Positions 19,981-55,263 of a DNA stretch of 55,263 nt are shown here, piece after piece. The stretch is from assembly GCF_004010055.1 (NCBI RefSeq), contig NZ_RQVT01000023.1, positions 1 to 55,263 of the forward strand. The letters run 5' to 3'. The stretch's first letter is position 1. Every line of letters starts with the position of its first letter. Below the pieces are notes generated by a model. The model worked only from the letters and a program-made list of their open reading frames with translations. It did not search any database and was not told the origin of the DNA. This DNA comes from Psychroflexus aestuariivivens. Lineage in GTDB: Bacteria > Bacteroidota > Bacteroidia > Flavobacteriales > Flavobacteriaceae. Both the position numbers and the translations under genes were made by a program.

Positions 19981-20045
19981 TTTGATAATGTTTAAATATA
20001 TTCTAAGCCAACGTACACGATTATCGTCAGAGGTTGATTTAGCGA
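19981..20045 (-). promoter_or_regulatory. Putative rplS leader RNA
   Basis: Read on the minus strand, CTAA (20042-20039) and CAAC (20036-20033) pair with GTTG (20012-20009) and TTAG (20006-20003), with a 2x2 internal loop. Inside is ACGA/TCGT with a 3-nt loop (20027-20017). The structure begins about 3 nt from the predicted transcript start. I recall, without certainty, that a flavobacterial L19 leader has been proposed. Confidence 0.45.
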
Positions 20046-47227: not shown

Positions 47228-48043
47228 ATGGAAAAATTACCTAAATCAATCGTCCCAATAATCATTGTGGTCGTAATTGGAATCATTTTTATCGCTAATT
47301 CCACAGTCAATATCAATTCTGGTGAAGCCGGAGTTTTGTTTAAAAGATTCGATGGAGGTGTTGTCACAGATGAAGCACCTTTGAAAGAAGGTTTTCACAT
47401 TGTAGCGCCATGGAATACGGTTTTTATTTATGAAGTCAGACAACAAACTATAGACGAATCAATGCAGGTTTTATCTTCTAACGGTTTGGATATCAAATTA
47501 GATGCAACTATTTGGTTTGAGCCTACTTACGATCAACTTGGGCTTTTGCACAAAGAACGTGGTGAAAAATATATTTCTAGATTGATTCAACCAGCAGTAA
47601 GATCGGCTACAAGAACAGTTGTGGGACGTTACAAACCAGAAGAGCTTTATGCACAAAAGCGTGAATCTATTCAAAATGAAATGTATGACGAAACTCAGCA
47701 ATTGTTGAAAAATCAATACGTCCAAGTCAACAGAATTTTGGTGAGAGATGTGTCTTTACCTCCTACGATTAAGCAAGCGATTGAGAGAAAATTGAAGCAA
47801 GAACAGGAATCTTTAGAGTATGAATTCCGTTTAGAAAAAGCGACTAAAGAAAAACGTCGTCAAGAAATTGAAGCTGAAGGTAAAGCTCGTGCCAACGAAA
47901 TTTTGAATGCGTCTTTAACCAAAAATATTCTAAAAGAAAAAGGAATTCAAGCTACTATAGAATTGTCAAAATCTGAAAATTCTAAAGTTATTGTTATTGG
48001 TTCTGGAGACGAAGGTTTACCAATTATATTAGGCAATAACTAA
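47228..48043 (+). CDS. Prohibitin-like SPFH/band 7 membrane protein
   Basis: 271 aa. One N-terminal transmembrane helix (about 6-26) is followed by an SPFH domain (NINSGEAGVLFKRFDGGVVT, EGFHIVAPWNTVFIYEVRQQ, GLDIKLDATIWFEPTYDQLG). A charged coiled coil follows (about 180-235, EFRLEKATKEKRRQEIEAEG). The end is KVIVIGSGDEGLPIILGNN. Members build ring- or cage-like oligomers that corral membrane proteases such as FtsH. It lies 12 nt after the VWA gene; the pairing is suggestive but unproven. Confidence 0.92.
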   Translation: MEKLPKSIVPIIIVVVIGIIFIANSTVNINSGEAGVLFKRFDGGVVTDEAPLKEGFHIVAPWNTVFIYEVRQQTIDESMQVLSSNGLDIKLDATIWFEPTYDQLGLLHKERGEKYISRLIQPAVRSATRTVVGRYKPEELYAQKRESIQNEMYDETQQLLKNQYVQVNRILVRDVSLPPTIKQAIERKLKQEQESLEYEFRLEKATKEKRRQEIEAEGKARANEILNASLTKNILKEKGIQATIELSKSENSKVIVIGSGDEGLPIILGNN

Positions 48044-48091: not shown

Positions 48092-48099
48092 TACATTTG
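48092..48099 (+). promoter_or_regulatory. -7 box of the his operon
   Basis: TACATTTG (48092-48099) followed by CA. The leader-peptide ATG at 48107 is only 7 nt further, so the transcript should have almost no 5' UTR. Confidence 0.65.
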
Positions 48100-48106
48100 C
48101 ATCATA

Positions 48107-48166
48107 ATGAAAAATATAACTTTACATCATCATTTATTTAACTCGCTCAATGCGGTTTGTATTTGA
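48107..48166 (+). CDS. hisL: His operon leader peptide
   Basis: 19 codons, MKNITLHHHLFNSLNAVCI, ending TGA at 48164-48166. Three consecutive His codons (CAT, 48125-48133) are followed at once by the antiterminator arm. It is a regulatory peptide: ribosome stalling at the His codons reports histidyl-tRNA shortage. No SD is visible, as is usual in this phylum, and the ATG lies almost at the predicted transcript start. It sits upstream of a terminator and the his genes, which makes chance unlikely. Confidence 0.87.
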   Translation: MKNITLHHHLFNSLNAVCI

Positions 48167-48206
48167 TATGTAAATAACTTGAATCATATTAAAAACCCGT
48201 TTGAGC
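48145..48206 (+). promoter_or_regulatory. His attenuator: antiterminator pairing
   Basis: GCTCAA (48145-48150) pairs with TTGAGC (48201-48206). GGTTT (48154-48158) pairs with AAACC (48193-48197), around a 3x3 internal loop. The 3' arm is the left arm of the terminator, so the two structures exclude each other. A ribosome stalled on CAT 48131-48133 leaves the 5' arm free. A ribosome that reaches the stop covers it and lets the terminator form. Confidence 0.78.
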
Positions 48207-48227
48207 CAACTTTCAAACGGGTTTTTT
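48192..48227 (+). terminator. His attenuator terminator
   Basis: AAAACCCGTTTGA (48192-48204) pairs with TCAAACGGGTTTT (48213-48225) and runs into T. The hisG ATG is 18 nt downstream, so this cannot serve an upstream gene alone. Confidence 0.92.
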
Positions 48228-48245
48228 CATGCTTAAAAATGAACT

Positions 48246-49103
48246 ATGGAAACACTAAAAATTGCTATTCAAAAATCTGGCAGGCTTCACGATGAATCTT
48301 TAAAAATACTCAGAGATTGTGGAATTTCTATCAATAATGGTCGCGACCAATTGAAAGTTGAAGCGGCAAATTTCCCTTTGGAAATATTTTATCTTAGAAA
48401 TGGTGATATTCCACAATATTTGAGAGATGGCGTGGCAGATTTGGCTATTGTAGGAGAAAATTTACTTTACGAAAAAGGAGAAGATTTGCAAATTCAAAAG
48501 CGACTAGGATTTTCAAAATGTAAAGTATCTTTAGCTATTCCTAAGCAGTGTGATTTCAAAAGTGTAGCGGAGCTAAGTGGAAAACAAATCGCCACATCTT
48601 ACCCAAATACATTACAAAAATATTTGGATCAAAATAATGTCTCAGCTGAAATTCATTTGATCACTGGTTCAGTTGAAATCGCTCCAAATATTGGTTTGGC
48701 AGATGCCATTTGTGACATTGTTTCCAGTGGAAGCACACTTTTCAAAAACAACCTGAAAGAAATGGATGTTATTTTAAAAAGTGAAGCAGTTTTGGCAAGT
48801 TCACCAAATTTGAATACTGAAAAAAAACAAATTTTAGATAAACTTTTGTTTAGGATAGATTCGGTTTTGAGAGCTGAAAATGCTAAATATGTTTTACTAA
48901 ATGCACCAAATGAAAAATTGAATGAAATTATAAAAATTCTACCTGGAATGAAAAGTCCAACGGTGATGCCTTTAGCTGAATCTGGTTGGAGTTCTGTTCA
49001 TACGGTAATTTATCAAGAAAAATTTTGGGAAATTATAGATGAATTGAAAAGCGTAGGTGCAGAAAGTATTTTAGTCAGTCCAATAGAAAAAATGATTTTA
49101 TGA
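48246..49103 (+). CDS. hisG: ATP phosphoribosyltransferase (long form)
   Basis: 285 aa, the long HisG with a C-terminal regulatory ACT-like domain (about 210-285), so no HisZ is needed. First step of histidine synthesis, joining PRPP and ATP; usually inhibited by histidine. Motifs are KIAIQKSGRLHDESLKILRD, DGVADLAIVGENLLYEKGED, QIATSYPNTLQKYL, the PRPP-loop region LITGSVEIAPNIGLADAICD, and IVSSGSTLFKNNLKEMD. The regulatory domain shows LPGMKSPTVMPLAESGWSSV. First structural gene after the attenuator. Overlaps hisD by 4 nt (ATGA). Confidence 0.97.
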   Translation: METLKIAIQKSGRLHDESLKILRDCGISINNGRDQLKVEAANFPLEIFYLRNGDIPQYLRDGVADLAIVGENLLYEKGEDLQIQKRLGFSKCKVSLAIPKQCDFKSVAELSGKQIATSYPNTLQKYLDQNNVSAEIHLITGSVEIAPNIGLADAICDIVSSGSTLFKNNLKEMDVILKSEAVLASSPNLNTEKKQILDKLLFRIDSVLRAENAKYVLLNAPNEKLNEIIKILPGMKSPTVMPLAESGWSSVHTVIYQEKFWEIIDELKSVGAESILVSPIEKMIL

Positions 49104-50392
49104 AAACAATTAAATACCCAAGTGAAGGAAGTTGGGAAGCACTTTTGAAACGTCCAACTAGGACATTCGAAGATATTGAAAATACTGTTAATTCTGTATT
49201 CAAAGACATCTATAAAAATGGTGATGATGCTTTAATAAAATATACCAAAATGTTTGACGGCGTTCAGCTTTCTAAATTTGAAGTTTCAGAAGCTGAAATT
49301 CAAAATGCTTCAAAATTGGTTTATGAAAATCTTAAAAAGGCAATTCAGCAAGCGCAACAAAATATTCATAATTTTCACAAAGCTCAAAAAACGGCGGTAG
49401 TAAAAGTAGAAACACAACCTGGTGTAAATTGTTGGCAAACCAAAAAAGCAATTCAAAAAGTTGGATTATATATCCCCGGTGGCACTGCGCCCTTATTTTC
49501 AACGGTTTTGATGCTTGCTGAGCCAGCAAAAATTGCTGGTTGCAAAGATATCGTATTGTGTACGCCACCAGACAAAAATGGAGAAATTGATCCAGCAATT
49601 TTGTACACGGCAGAACTTTGCGGCGTGACTAAAATTTTCAAACTTGGCGGAATTCAGGCGATTGCTGCCATGACTTTTGGCACGAAATCAGTACCGAAAG
49701 TTTATAAAATATTTGGTCCAGGAAACCAATATGTTACCGTAGCAAAACAAGTTGCGACAAGATATAATATAGCTATTGACATGCCTGCTGGACCTTCTGA
49801 ATTACTAGTCATGGCAGACCAAACAGCCAATTCTGAATTTGTGGCTTCTGACTTATTAAGTCAAGCCGAACATGGAGAAGATTCTCAGGTGATTTTGGTA
49901 TCTACGGACGAGAAGTTTATTGAATCAGTTCAAGCTGAAATCTCAAAGCAAATTAAAGAATTACCGAGAAAAAATATCGCAGAAAAAGCGATTCAAAATT
50001 CAAAATTTATATTGATGAAGGATTTTGAAACTGCTTTGGAATTGATAGATTTTTATGCGCCAGAACATTTTATTATTTCAACCAAAAACGATGATTTTTT
50101 TGTCGAAAATATCAATAATGCGGGTTCCGTTTTTATAGGAAAATATACTCCAGAGAGTGCGGGAGATTATGCTTCAGGAACCAATCATACTTTACCAACT
50201 AATGGCTTTGCCAAACAGTATAGCGGCGTGAATCTAGATAGTTTTCAGAAGTCGATAACTTTTCAAAAAATAGACGAAAACGGAATTGCTTCTATTGGCG
50301 AAACTGTAGAATTAATGGCAGAAGCAGAAGGTTTGCAAGCACACAAACGAGCAATGACTTTGCGAAAAAATGCTTTGAAATTTAATAAATAA
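49100..50392 (+). CDS. hisD: Histidinol dehydrogenase
   Basis: 430 aa, typical. Oxidises histidinol to histidine in two NAD+-dependent steps. Motifs are NCWQTKKAIQKVGLYIPGGT, KIFKLGGIQAIAAMTFGTKS, KIFGPGNQYVTVAKQVATRY, DMPAGPSELLVMADQTANSE and SDLLSQAEHGEDSQVILVST (zinc His/Gln region). The catalytic EH of YAPEHFIIS follows, then GDYASGTNHTLPTNGFAKQY (metal His). It is translationally coupled to hisG (ATGA) and followed 4 nt later by hisC. Confidence 0.98.
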   Translation: MKTIKYPSEGSWEALLKRPTRTFEDIENTVNSVFKDIYKNGDDALIKYTKMFDGVQLSKFEVSEAEIQNASKLVYENLKKAIQQAQQNIHNFHKAQKTAVVKVETQPGVNCWQTKKAIQKVGLYIPGGTAPLFSTVLMLAEPAKIAGCKDIVLCTPPDKNGEIDPAILYTAELCGVTKIFKLGGIQAIAAMTFGTKSVPKVYKIFGPGNQYVTVAKQVATRYNIAIDMPAGPSELLVMADQTANSEFVASDLLSQAEHGEDSQVILVSTDEKFIESVQAEISKQIKELPRKNIAEKAIQNSKFILMKDFETALELIDFYAPEHFIISTKNDDFFVENINNAGSVFIGKYTPESAGDYASGTNHTLPTNGFAKQYSGVNLDSFQKSITFQKIDENGIASIGETVELMAEAEGLQAHKRAMTLRKNALKFNK

Positions 50393-50396
50393 TAAA

Positions 50397-51431
50397 ATGG
50401 ATTTAAACAGTTTAATTCGAGAGAATGTCAAGCAAATGTCAGCGTATAGTTCAGCTAGAGATGAATTTGACGCCAAAGATTCAGACTTTTTATTTTTAGA
50501 TGCAAATGAAAATCCTTTCGATAGTGGTTTCAATCGTTATCCGGATCCATATCAAAAACAATTGAAATCGAAAATCAAAGAAGTCAAACAAGTTCCTGAA
50601 AATAACATGTTATTAGGGAATGGAAGTGATGAAATTTTGGATTTGATTTTCAGAACTTTTTGTGAGCCACAAGTAGATGAAATTATTACTTTAACACCAA
50701 CTTACGGAATGTATGAAGTCTTGGCAAACCTGAATAATATTGCTATAAAAAGAATTAATCTAACTCCTGAGTTTCAAATTAATGTTGATTTAATTTTAAA
50801 ATCAATTTCACCAAACACTAAATTGATTTTCATTTGTTCTCCAAATAATCCTTCGGGCAATTTGTTTCAAATTAACGACATCAAAACTATTCTCAAAACG
50901 TTTTCTGGTTTGGTTGTATTGGACGAGGCTTATATCGATTTTTCAGACAGGAGTTCATTCATTTCAGAATTGAATAATTTCCCTAATTTAATTGTTACTC
51001 AAACTTTTTCCAAAGCACTGGCTCATGCTGGTATTAGGCTAGGGATGTGTTTTGCTTCAGAGCGTATTATTGAGGTTTTAAATAAAATAAAACCGCCTTA
51101 TAACGTAAACCAACTTACACAAAATAAGGCCATTGAAGTGTTGAATAATTTCGAAAATTATCAGCTTCAGATTCAAATTTTAAAATCTGAAAGAGAAATT
51201 CTAACTGAAAAACTTAAAACTATCAATTGGATTGAAAATGTTTTTCCATCGGAAGCCAATTTTTTGCTTTGCCGAGTTGATGATGCCAACCGAAGATACC
51301 AACAACTATTAGAAGAGAAAATTGTGGTAAGAAATCGATCGAACGTTGTGTTGTGCCACAATTGTTTAAGAATAAGTGTAGGAACGCCAGCTGAAAATCA
51401 AAAATTAATACAAGTTTTAAACGACATATAA
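50397..51431 (+). CDS. hisC: Histidinol-phosphate aminotransferase
   Basis: 344 aa, typical for the short HisC. PLP enzyme transaminating imidazole-acetol phosphate with glutamate. N-terminal [20 protein letters not shown] is the classical substrate-site start. The PLP-phosphate part is [19 protein letters not shown]. Then [13 protein letters not shown] and [15 protein letters not shown]. The Schiff-base Lys is in [17 protein letters not shown]. The last part, [20 protein letters not shown] and [17 protein letters not shown], closes the active site. It lies 2 nt before hisB. Confidence 0.97.
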
Positions 51432-51433
51432 CA

Positions 51434-52567
51434 ATGAAAAAATTACTTTTTATAGATCGTGACGGTACTTTAATCAAAGAACCCAAAGATGAACAAATCG
51501 ATAGTTTTAGCAAATTAGAATTTTATCCAGAAGTGTTTTATTATTTAAGAAAAATAGTAAGAGAATTTGATTTTGAAATTGTTATGATTACAAATCAGGA
51601 TGGTTTGGGAACACCTCAATATCCCGAAGACACATTTTGGCCTGTGCAAGATTTCATTATCAACGCATTCAAAAATGAGGGTGTTGTTTTTAATGAAATT
51701 GTGATTGATAAAACATTTCCAGAGGAAAATGCATCAACACGGAAACCCAAAACTGGACTTTTAAAAAATTACTTCAGTAAATCTTATGATTTAAAAAACT
51801 CTTATGTTATTGGGGACCGACTCACCGATGTTGAATTAGCAAAGAACTTGAAATCCAAAGCAATTTTTATCGATAATAAAACTAATCTAGGTCAAGGGGA
51901 AACCGAAGCTTCAGATGAGGAATTAACGTCATTTGTAGCTTTGAAAACTGATAATTGGCAATTTATTTATGAGTTTTTAAAACTTAAGACACGTACTGCA
52001 AAACTTCAAAGAAACACCAAGGAAACTAAAATTTCAGTTGAAATAAATCTGGATGGGAGTGGTGAAAGTAACATTTCCACAGGGATTTCGTTTTTCGACC
52101 ACATGCTAGATCAAATTGCAAGACATGGACAACTAGATATTCACCTTGATGCCAAAGGTGATTTGGAAGTTGACGAGCACCACACGATTGAAGACGTTGC
52201 AATTGTTTTGGGTGAAGTTTTTGCCCAAACTTTAGGTGATAAAATCGGCATCGAACGCTACGGATTTTGCTTGCCGATGGATGATAGTTTGGCACAAGTT
52301 GCACTTGACTTTGGCGGAAGAAATTGGCTGGTTTGGGATGCTGAATTCAAAAGAGAAAAAATAGGAGAAATGCCTACAGAAATGTTTAAGCATTTTTTCA
52401 AATCATTTTCAGATGGCGCCAAATGTAATTTGAACATTAAAGCTGAAGGTGAAAATGAACACCATAAAATCGAAGCTATTTTTAAAGCATTTGCGAAAGC
52501 TCTGAAAATGGCAATTCAGCGCAATCCTGAAAAAATGATTTTACCAAGCACAAAAGGACAATTATAA
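51434..52567 (+). CDS. hisB: Bifunctional histidinol-phosphatase / imidazoleglycerol-phosphate dehydratase
   Basis: 377 aa. Residues 1-170 are the HAD phosphatase: nucleophile Asp8 and Asp10 in [21 protein letters not shown] and [15 protein letters not shown]. The loop that binds structural zinc in E. coli HisB (C-x-H and C-x-C) reads [16 protein letters not shown] here, with Asp92, Thr94, Ala100 and Thr102 in place of the ligands. Residues 190-377 are the IGP dehydratase: [40 protein letters not shown] and [20 protein letters not shown], with the manganese His clusters intact. It catalyses steps 7 and 9 of the pathway. Confidence 0.97.
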
Positions 52568-52577
52568 CCTATATATT

Positions 52578-53165
52578 ATGAAAATTACAATCATAGATTA
52601 TGGTGCTGGAAATGTGAAAAGTATAGAATTTGCTTTGGAAAGAATTGGGTATTCTTCTGTTTTAACCAAAGATGCAAATACCATCAAAAATGCAGATCGT
52701 GTTATTTTCCCAGGTGTTGGTGAGGCTTCTTACGCTATGAATATGCTTAAAAAGTCAAAGTTGAATCATCTTATTCCTACTTTAAAGCAACCTGTTTTGG
52801 GTATTTGTCTCGGAATGCAACTCATGTGTCAAACTTCGGAAGAAGGTGAAACGGACGCCTTAGGAATTTTCGATTTGAAGGTCAAACGATTTCAAAATAC
52901 ACTTAAAGTGCCACAAATCGGATGGAATACAATTTTCAATTTGAAATCTATACTTTTTGAAAATATACCCGAAAATACTTATATGTATTTGGTTCACAGT
53001 TATTTTGTACCTTCTAATTCTTTTTGTATTGCAACTTCAGATTACGGAATAGAATATTCAGTAGCTGTTCAGAAAAATAATTTTTTTGGTGTTCAATTTC
53101 ACCCAGAAAAAAGTGGAGTTTTGGGAGAACAATTACTGAAAAATTTTATTGAAAACACTAATTAA
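52578..53165 (+). CDS. hisH: Imidazole glycerol phosphate synthase, glutaminase subunit
   Basis: 195 aa, typical. A class-I glutamine amidotransferase that supplies ammonia to HisF. Nucleophile Cys77 is in [14 protein letters not shown]. The oxyanion PGVG segment is in [15 protein letters not shown]. The catalytic His-Glu pair is in [21 protein letters not shown]-terminal [20 protein letters not shown] is diagnostic. It lies 10 nt after hisB and 10 nt before hisA. Confidence 0.97.
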
Positions 53166-53175
53166 AATTGAAGGA

Positions 53176-53901
53176 ATGAGAATAATACCAGCCATAGATA
53201 TTATAGACGGAAAGTGTGTTAGATTGTCGAAAGGCGATTACAGTACAAAGAAAATTTACAATGAAAATCCACTTGAAGTCGCTAAAGCTTTTGAAGATAA
53301 TGGCGTTGAATATTTGCACCTGGTAGATTTGGATGGTGCAAAATCCAAACAAATCGTCAATTATAGGATTTTGGAAAATTTAGCAAGCAAAACCCAACTA
53401 AAAATTGATTTTGGAGGCGGAATTAAATCAGATAAAGATTTAAATATTGCATTTGAATCTGGCGCAAAACAAGTTACAGCAGGAAGTCTAGCTGTTACAA
53501 ATCCAGATTTGTTTTTATCTTGGTTAAGGAAGTTCGGTTCAAAACAAATTATTCTGGGCGCCGATGCCAAAGATGGTAAGATTGCAACTTCAGGATGGCA
53601 AAATTCAACTGATTTAGACATCTTAGACTTCATTTCAGATTTTGTAGAAAAAGGCGTTAAATACGTGATTTCGACCGATATTTCTAAAGACGGGATGCTA
53701 GGTGGTTTGTCTTTAGAACTTTACAAATCCATTTTGAAATCGAAACCAAGCTTGAATTTAATAGCTTCTGGTGGAGTTTCAGAACTTGCAGATTTAGAAA
53801 AAGTCAAACATATTGGTTGTGAAGGCGTGATTATAGGCAAAGCGATTTATGAAAATCGAATTTCGTTACAAGATTTACAAATGTTCATTATTAATCATTA
53901 A
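53176..53901 (+). CDS. hisA: ProFAR isomerase (HisA)
   Basis: 241 aa from the ATG at 53176 ([20 protein letters not shown]). An upstream in-frame TTG would add nine residues overlapping hisH and is rejected. TIM-barrel isomerase of the fourth step (ProFAR to PRFAR). Catalytic Asp8 is in AIDIIDGK. Phosphate sites are [12 protein letters not shown] and [16 protein letters not shown], and the second acid is in [15 protein letters not shown]. The half-barrel repeat shared with HisF is evident. 11 nt to hisF. Confidence 0.97.
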
Positions 53902-53912
53902 AATAGATTAAA

Positions 53913-54668
53913 GTGTTAGCAAAAAGAATAATTCCTTGTTTAGATATCAAAAACGGTCGAACCGTCAAAGGTGTCAATTTTTTAGATTTGAAAGATGCTG
54001 GCGACCCTGTAGAATTAGCAAAATTCTATGCTGAAAATATGGCTGATGAATTGGTTTTTCTTGATATCTCCGCAACAGAAGAAGCTAGAAAAACGATGGT
54101 GAAACTGGTTGAAAAAATAGCTAAAACTATCAATATTCCTTTTACTGTTGGTGGAGGAATTTCCAATTTGAAAGATGTAGATTTAATTTTGAAATCCGGT
54201 GCTGATAAGGTGTCAATAAATTCAGCAGCAGTCAAAAACCCAGAATTGATTTCTGAAATCTCAAAACAATATGGCAACCAGTGTGTAGTTGTGGCAATAG
54301 ATGCAAAATTGATTGATAATAACTGGAAAGTGCATCTTGTTGGTGGAAAAGAACCAACAAACTTAGATTTATTTGAGTGGGCAAAAACGGTTGAACGATA
54401 CGGAGCTGGTGAGATTTTGTTCACTTCGATGAATCACGATGGAACAAAAACTGGATTTGCAAATTCAGCTTTGGCAAAATTGTCAGGCATTTTAGAGATT
54501 CCAGTTATCGCTTCTGGAGGCGCTGGATCTATAAAAGATTTCAAAGATGTTTTTGTTGAAGGAAAAGCTGATGCAGCATTGGCAGCGAGTGTTTTTCATT
54601 TTAAAGAAATAGATATTAAACATTTAAAGAGAGTATTAAAAAATAAAGGCATTTCAGTAAGAATTTAA
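53913..54668 (+). CDS. hisF: Imidazole glycerol phosphate synthase, cyclase subunit
   Basis: 251 aa, typical. It starts with GTG at 53913, which gives the standard N-terminus [23 protein letters not shown] barrel that cyclises PRFAR with ammonia from HisH to ImGP and AICAR. Catalytic Asp11 is in PCLDIKNGR and the second Asp in [15 protein letters not shown]. Phosphate loops are [18 protein letters not shown] and [35 protein letters not shown] is also characteristic. 12 nt to hisIE. Confidence 0.98.
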
Positions 54669-54680
54669 ATTATACAAAAA

Positions 54681-55263
54681 ATGGAAATTAATTTCAATAA
54701 AAATAAAGATGGATTAGTACCTGCAGTTATTCAAGATGTGAAAACAAAACAGGTTTTAATGTTAGGTTATATGAATGAAGAAGCCTACCAAAAAACGATT
54801 AAAGAGAAAAAAGTTACTTTTTTTAGTAGAAGTAAACAGCGACTTTGGACGAAAGGGGAGGAAAGTGGAAATAATCTTGAATTGATAGATTTAAAATTAG
54901 ATTGTGATCAAGATACTTTATTAATTTTGGTTAAACCAAAAGGTCCAACTTGTCATAAAGGAACTGATACCTGCTTTGGGAATGAAAACCTGACTAATTA
55001 TGGTTTTATTTCCAAATTAGAAGATATAATTCTGGACCGCCAAAAATCAGGAAATATTGAGCAAAGTTATATTGCCAGCTTATTTCAGGACGGAATTAAT
55101 AAAATTGCCCAAAAGGTAGGCGAGGAGGCTGTTGAATTAATAATTGAAGCAAAAGATGATAATGACAAATTATTCCTAAACGAAAGTGCGGATTTACTAT
55201 TTCATTATTTAATTTTATTGAGATCGAAGGGATATTCATTTATGGATATAGTGGAGGTTTTGG
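54681..55263 (+). CDS. hisI: Phosphoribosyl-AMP cyclohydrolase / phosphoribosyl-ATP pyrophosphatase, cut at right edge
   Basis: 194 codons are visible before the window ends without a stop; the family is about 200 aa, so only a few residues are missing. Residues 1-105 are the cyclohydrolase (HisI): VLMLGYMNEEAYQKTIKEKK, FFSRSKQRLWTKGEESGN, the metal stretch LDCDQDTLLILV, and the zinc Cys pair in GPTCHKGTDTCF. Residues about 112-194 are the pyrophosphatase (HisE): LEDIILDRQKSGNIEQSYIA, KIAQKVGEEAVELIIEAKDD and the ESADLLFHYLILL acidic site. Steps 2 and 3 of histidine synthesis. Last recognised gene of the operon in this window. Confidence 0.96.
   Translation, partial: MEINFNKNKDGLVPAVIQDVKTKQVLMLGYMNEEAYQKTIKEKKVTFFSRSKQRLWTKGEESGNNLELIDLKLDCDQDTLLILVKPKGPTCHKGTDTCFGNENLTNYGFISKLEDIILDRQKSGNIEQSYIASLFQDGINKIAQKVGEEAVELIIEAKDDNDKLFLNESADLLFHYLILLRSKGYSFMDIVEVL

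Follow-up and report, generated by a model that had tools for sequence, protein, structure and literature searches.

A probable ribosome-mediated attenuator upstream of hisG in Psychroflexus aestuariivivens and its relatives in Bacteroidota

We analysed a stretch of 55,263 nucleotides (contig NZ_RQVT01000023.1, hereafter the window) from the 3.1-Mb genome of Psychroflexus aestuariivivens, in which the histidine (his) operon begins with hisG. The leader of hisG is, with a probability of roughly 0.9 as judged from sequence comparison, a ribosome-mediated transcription attenuator of this operon. A promoter box, a short leader open reading frame (ORF) with consecutive His codons and an intrinsic terminator all lie between an upstream gene (47228-48043) and hisG (Table 1). 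Three hairpins compete in this leader: a protector hairpin (regions 1 and 2, 1:2), an antiterminator (regions A and B, A:B) and the terminator, region B falling mostly within the 5' arm of the latter. A preliminary description of the window had proposed classical his attenuation from a 19-codon frame with CAT-CAT-CAT and a 13-bp terminator before hisG. Direct reading and folding confirmed both parts, and the comparison of relatives supported the proposal itself.

Loci compared

The genus set comprised 19 Psychroflexus loci and the order set 6 loci from other families of the order. The family set held Flavobacteriaceae with one genome per genus (97-98 loci), the class set up to 65 loci and the named set 79; because the named and family sets have genomes in common, they do not provide independent counts. 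G171 and the second G251 fragment stood outside these sets. Loci without an ORF were excluded from the counts of promoter boxes and His runs (1/98 family, 6/65 class). For the antiterminator, own-partner and ribosome-model sets, an ORF and a terminator of -6 kcal/mol or stronger were both required, which removed 1/98 family and 14/65 class loci (15/65 class loci in the own-partner test).

Conservation of the leader reading frame

A His-rich ORF, defined by an ATG start and at least three His within six codons in the 300 nt upstream of hisG, was present in 15/19 genus, 6/6 order, 93/97 family, 54/65 class and 78/79 named loci (L098 and L191, with short upstream sequences, were left out of this count, and L191 also out of the family alignment). 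Dinucleotide shuffles gave such an ORF in less than 1% of cases (0/380, 0/120, 15/1940, 12/1300 and 9/1580, respectively), and the best other amino acid satisfied the same definition in 11 family, 12 class and 9 named loci. Allowing GTG and TTG starts added one family, three class and one named locus. The longest His run was mostly 3-4 codons; CAT and CAC were both used, CAC making up 9% of His codons in the family and 25% in the class. The preliminary description had suggested that its reading could be checked by conservation of the His codons in relatives, and such conservation was found in the genus, order, family, class and named sets. In three Psychroflexus loci (L014, L015 and L023) the best stretch holds two His, in two of them within WLHFHNF or WQHFHNY.

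The lengths of the gaps bear on translation of this frame. Of the 106 gap runs that the 98-sequence family alignment shows as far as the A arm, 102 were 3 or 6 nt long, a count that sets aside a one-base insert column with letters in 2/98 rows. Independently of any alignment, the distance from the His run to the A core was constant modulo 3 in 60 of the 66 loci with both motifs, and the distance from the ORF end to hisG was evenly spread (31/34/33). Because of the gap lengths and the constant frame distance to the A core, we regard the leader frame as translated, and the ORF is under the coding constraint expected of such a frame. The leader peptide end QAR/QAS recurs across Flavobacteriaceae (L030-L135); since the bases that encode it lie in or beside region A, its conservation most likely reflects RNA pairing.

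Competing hairpins of the leader

The terminator of the window reads AAACCCGTTTGAG-CCAACT-TTCAAACGGGTTT (48193-48224), and its stem ends 21 nt before the hisG ATG (48246). When segments were folded alone, the antiterminator reached -18.5, the terminator -18.3 and the leader segment (48104-48190) -16.4 kcal/mol; compared with chance, the z values were -4.7, -5.7 and -3.1, respectively, and -5.1 for the whole leader. Among the window hairpins listed as terminator-like at -9 kcal/mol or better, the hisG one was alone in having a His-rich short ORF before it. An ORF with at least two His together with a terminator (dG <= -6) occurred in 252/268 loci, counted over overlapping sets. In the family alignment, 7 of the 12 terminator pairs showed double changes and 98.0% of the cells were paired, and the terminator surpassed all slid versions by every measure.

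The stronger antiterminator pairing joins GCTCAA(T)GCGG (48145-48155) with CCGTTTGAGC (48197-48206) in a duplex of -13.9 kcal/mol. The preliminary description had drawn it as two pieces around an internal loop; both pieces exist, but the antiterminator is better described as one longer helix of 10 bp with a single bulged U. The duplex was equalled by at most 5% of its own shuffles in 17/19 genus, 4/6 order, 80/97 family and 26/51 class loci. With double changes in 4 of 10 pairs and 87.7% paired cells in the family alignment, it scored above every slid version by four of the five measures. The antiterminator shares an arm with the terminator and is kept by covariation.

As region B belongs to both structures, covariation in the antiterminator could be borrowed from the terminator, a concern that is lessened by two further tests. 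In the first, which pools the named and family sets and counts identical stretch pairs once, the base after the B core and the base before the A core formed Watson-Crick pairs in 60 of 111 cases for 34 expected, with a maximum of 54 in 10000 permutations; relatives share ancestry, and neither this nor the following permutation results are strict probabilities. In the window this B-side base is part of the terminator loop, which does not apply to loci whose stem extends further inwards, such as L009. In the second test, the pairing energy of A with its own B was -13.4 against -12.2 with permuted B in the family (n = 97) and -13.3 against -10.5 in the class (n = 50), an advantage unreached in 20000 permutations in either set. 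Hairpin 1:2 also passed this own-partner test (family and class, 20000 permutations), on which we relied because varying numbers of His codons shift this hairpin and preclude a column-wise covariation count in the family alignment. Region 1 starts before the first His codon and ends at the first base of the third. The covarying stems that the preliminary description had named as a further check were found in the double changes of the terminator, at the flanking base and in the own-partner tests.

In other orders of the class, many loci combined a GGTAAGC-like A with GGCTTACC (e.g., L206, L209, L217, L221, L224, L232, L255), and some kept the CTCAAGCG and CGTTTGAG type of A:B (L235, L237). As read from these loci, the sequence of the antiterminator has often changed in the other orders and its pairing has been kept.

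Ribosome positions and proposed mechanism

We then considered a modelled ribosome whose assumed footprint extends 15 nt upstream and 13 nt downstream of the first A-site codon base. With this ribosome at the first His codon, A:B was part of the minimum-energy fold of the RNA up to B in 19/19 genus, 6/6 order, 95/97 family and 48/51 class loci. The corresponding numbers were 7/19, 1/6, 23/97 and 13/51 with the ribosome at the stop codon, and 12/19, 1/6, 35/97 and 15/51 without a ribosome. In the window, A:B formed with the ribosome at His and was absent with the ribosome at the stop, in agreement with the geometry put forward in the preliminary description.

The mechanism that we infer, including its start site, order of events and response to histidine, would run as follows. 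Transcription would begin some 3 nt upstream of the leader ATG, with translation of the leader under way during its synthesis. When charged His-tRNA is scarce, the ribosome would wait at the His codons and hold region 1, leaving region A free to pair with B once B is made; no terminator would then form and RNA polymerase would proceed into hisG. When His-tRNA is plentiful, the ribosome would reach the stop and cover A, B would pair with its own 3' arm and transcription would end at about 48227. Without translation, hairpin 1:2 would form first and keep A in its loop, favouring termination. This proposal follows classical attenuation logic.

Several observations weigh against this interpretation. 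The best stretch holds only two His codons in four of the 19 genus loci, and four gap runs and two one-base inserts, just before the A arm, break the multiple-of-three rule. A simple terminator scan listed no terminator in the leader region, whereas folding shows it clearly. The number of double-change pairs in the antiterminator (4/10) does not exceed that obtained with a slide by -2 (5) and is reached by 26/500 shuffles, and column 58 of this structure is unpaired in 56/98 rows. Hairpin 1:2 beats its own shuffles in only 6/19 genus, 2/6 order, 45/97 family and 11/50 class loci. With the footprint used, A:B can still form in 7/19 genus loci when the ribosome is at the stop. Finally, when no ribosome is present, the antiterminator is the lowest-energy fold of the RNA up to B for the window and 12/19 genus loci, so that the off state of the window would have to rest on hairpin 1:2 forming first.

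Alternative explanations

The leader peptide could sense His-tRNA with a translational or Rho-dependent output instead of intrinsic termination, and some class lineages indeed have a His leader with no intrinsic terminator detected. However, in the window and in 97/98 family loci the ORF is followed by a hairpin (-6 kcal/mol or better) that has a T-rich tail and covaries, and in the whole-leader fold the hisG start takes part in a sole pairing of 4 bp that is absent from the centroid. We consider this explanation improbable.

The hairpin could also be the ordinary terminator of the upstream gene 47228-48043, with a chance ORF alongside. This gene has the same direction, with 48 nt between its end and the promoter box, and the end of an HflC/HflK-like gene was recognised by pattern in 12/19 genus and 51/97 family loci. 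The pattern was nevertheless found in 0/59 class and 0/6 order loci, where the His ORF is present, and such a terminator leaves no place for in-frame His codons, for antiterminator covariation or for a promoter box, which makes this reading very unlikely. Least credible is a T-box, riboswitch or protein-binding leader with an incidental ORF, for which the strong structure before a biosynthetic operon would speak, since no Rfam family matched at gathering score, no T-box figured among the 38 sub-threshold matches up to E 10, and the reading-frame constraint counts against an incidental ORF. The upstream-gene terminator, the T-box and other Rfam families were rejected on this evidence.

Promoter box and start of the leader RNA

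In a passage of PMC9723704, the TAnnTTTG box is placed at -12 to -5, which predicts 48104, three nt 5' of the leader ATG, as the first base of the transcript in the window. In the genus, the exact box ended 4-7 nt before the leader start codon in 19/19 loci, giving predicted 5' untranslated regions (5'UTRs) of 0-3 nt; in L014, L015 and L023, where the box is 4 nt from the start codon, the predicted first base of the RNA is that of the codon itself. An exact box was found within 80 nt in 42/97 family and 46/59 class loci, of which 17 and 10, respectively, had it within 9 nt of the start codon. According to the same source passage, leaderless mRNAs represent only 5.5% of 890 analysed. A sigma-70 promoter scan, which gave 3 sites for 4.5 expected, was set aside for TAnnTTTG as being of the wrong promoter type for this phylum.

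Distribution, losses and variants

A covariance model of the leader was trained on the window and 97 family loci. In its own genome, the best match was 48107-48230 (E 1.4e-12) and the next had E 0.0012. Among 40 relatives, the hisG leader was recovered in 22 of the 24 hisG-bearing genomes held out of training (21 of these at E <= 1.1e-6 and the other at 3.7e-4) and missed in G032 and G037, and no match below E 5e-4 appeared in 15 relatives without hisG. The family search, whose matches were mostly the training sequences themselves, yielded 102 matches at E <= 1.2e-6; each of the 99 hisG-bearing genomes contributed a single one within 1 kb of the gene, and the remaining three were an orphan leader in G066, a contig end in G087 and G091:C5, which lacks a His-rich ORF. 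The weaker matches among those listed (the second and third in the own genome, G091:C5, G064:C1, two in G150 and one in G061) were hairpins without a His-rich ORF and were discarded.

In other classes of the phylum (33 loci examined, 6 of 39 having given no HisG match), a His-rich ORF with three start codons allowed preceded hisG in 11 of the 33 loci. These were all five loci of family f82, all five of family f89 and a doubtful one in f87; among the 33, no such ORF accompanied an LGLPKGS-type HisG or occurred in f84 and f91, which have a QKSGRL-type HisG.

The orphan leader, L314 (G066:C11:14399-14521, minus strand), matched the model at E 1.1e-14, encodes MNNSFLHHHHILFHALAR and has a terminator. 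No match to hisG or hisD was obtained in G066, which is 99% complete, and L314 is probably what remained when the his operon was lost. Past L314, the nearest long ORF follows at 200 nt and is putatively CorA-type transporter-like by eye. The absence of hisG matches in three Psychroflexus genomes that are 96-100% complete (G010, G017, G019) suggests that histidine synthesis was lost within this genus.

No intrinsic terminator was detected after the His-rich leader ORFs of four f55 loci (L244, L245, L251, L263) and two f30 loci (L216, L230). All of these f55 loci but L245 (L244, L251, L263) have their last His codons inside a hairpin of type CATCATCGCC/GGCGAT. The third f30 locus, L248, has a strong terminator hairpin.

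The his operon and neighbouring features

The coordinates of the leader parts and of the surrounding genes are given in Table 1. Elsewhere in the window, an L19-Flavobacteria ribosomal protein leader (RF03130) matched 20009-20036 on the minus strand with 40.7 bits.

Table 1. Features of the hisG leader and flanking genes in the window
Feature	Positions	Strand	Basis
Upstream gene, HflC/HflK-like	47228..48043	+	Matches below cut-offs
-7 box TACATTTG, primary-sigma promoter of Bacteroidota (TAnnTTTG)	48092..48099	+	Exact box, 19/19 Psychroflexus loci
Predicted transcription start, 3 nt 5' of leader ATG	48104	+	Predicted from box position and a passage of PMC9723704
Leader peptide ORF, 19 codons, MKNITLHHHLFNSLNAVCI, ATG 48107-48109, stop TGA 48164-48166	48107..48166	+	Read directly; conservation
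Region 1, protector hairpin 5' arm, overlapping His codons	48121..48131	+	Folding; own-partner preference
His codons CAT CAT CAT, consecutive	48125..48133	+	Read directly; His run conserved
Region A, antiterminator 5' arm (GCUCAAUGCGG)	48145..48155	+	Duplex energy, covariation, own-partner test, folding
Region 2, protector hairpin 3' arm, at stop codon	48165..48174	+	Folding
Intrinsic terminator hairpin, 13 bp, 6-nt loop	48193..48224	+	Folding, covariation
Region B (CCGUUUGAGC), common to antiterminator and terminator	48197..48206	+	Duplex energy, covariation
Terminator T run, six T	48222..48227	+	Read directly
hisG, first gene of the operon	48246..49103	+	NCBIfam TIGR00070 over cut-off
hisD	49100..50392	+	NCBIfam
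hisC	50397..51431	+	NCBIfam
hisB (bifunctional)	51434..52567	+	NCBIfam
hisH	52578..53165	+	NCBIfam
hisA	53176..53901	+	NCBIfam
hisF	53913..54668	+	NCBIfam
Probable hisIE, running past the window end	54681..55262	+	Open frame; putative name from sequence reading alone

Discussion

With the comparison of relatives, a guess made from a single genome has become a testable case of a core-pathway regulator that is widely conserved; the comparison also provides an alignment and a model for a family missing from Rfam. Transcription and translation signals of Bacteroidota differ from those of model bacteria, and the leader offers a simple in vivo probe for translation-transcription coupling in this phylum. 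The Psychroflexus version, predicted to be near-leaderless, and the lineages with no detected terminator are natural variants with which one can ask what the switch requires. Tentatively, and with more doubt than confidence, we propose that the his operon of Bacteroidota had one old attenuator of its own, ancestral to Bacteroidia and at least two families of other classes and unrelated in sequence to the proteobacterial one; the Psychroflexus version would be essentially leaderless, so that the sensing ribosome could load on the 5' end upon its emergence, and some lineages would have given up the terminator and kept the His codons in a strong hairpin for another output.

Attenuators of his operons are textbook knowledge in enterobacteria, and their leader is represented in Rfam by His_leader (RF00514; hisL of E. 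coli and Salmonella). The element described here resembles it in having a leader ORF with tandem His codons and mutually exclusive antiterminator and terminator before hisG. In contrast, His_leader gave no match at gathering score, nor among the 38 matches up to E 10, where the leader showed instead weak sub-threshold matches to the leader models for Phe (E 0.23), Thr (E 0.44) and Trp (E 2.6); no Rfam family at all matched the leader at gathering score. The his leader of E. coli has seven His codons, against mostly 3-4 here, and the predicted 5'UTR of 3 nt in the window leaves no room for a Shine-Dalgarno site.

Within the phylum, strong clues to leader-peptide attenuation before flavobacterial amino-acid operons are mentioned in a passage of PMC9723704, which also lists hisG among the conserved structured 5' elements without Rfam match in Flavobacterium psychrophilum and other Flavobacteriaceae. 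That element, with the same gene, the same family and likewise no Rfam match, is most likely the one described here, although the passage does not give the details worked out above. The preliminary description, which named no his leader described in flavobacteria, is to be corrected by this mention. In the literature covered, outside which most subscription papers fall, we found no fuller account of a Bacteroidota his attenuator than this passage. The Bacteroid-trp motif (RF01692), a Bacteroidetes leader motif linked to trp by its name in the part of PMC2864571 concerned, was absent among the matches in the leader region (up to E 10), and the short ORFs resembling leader peptides that a section of PMC7366714 describes in Bacteroides thetaiotaomicron do not include his there.

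In other phyla, the his attenuators of Firmicutes (Bacillus cereus group, Eubacteriales, Erysipelotrichales), as presented in a section of PMC9413887, similarly combine three to five consecutive His codons with a terminator and an antiterminator. The leaderless trpL of Sinorhizobium meliloti concerns tryptophan, and its attenuator RNA begins at the leader ATG according to a passage of PMC7298713, whereas here the start is only predicted, from the box; because of this precedent, a near-leaderless attenuator RNA in Psychroflexus would be a variant and not a new principle. The idea of a his attenuator is therefore not new, and the hisG leader is a well-supported case of a known principle with a prior mention, to which we add its reach across the class and into two families of other classes, its covariation, the predicted 5'UTR of 0-3 nt in 19/19 Psychroflexus loci, the orphan leader in a genome without hisG or hisD matches and the lineages that have the leader with no terminator detected.
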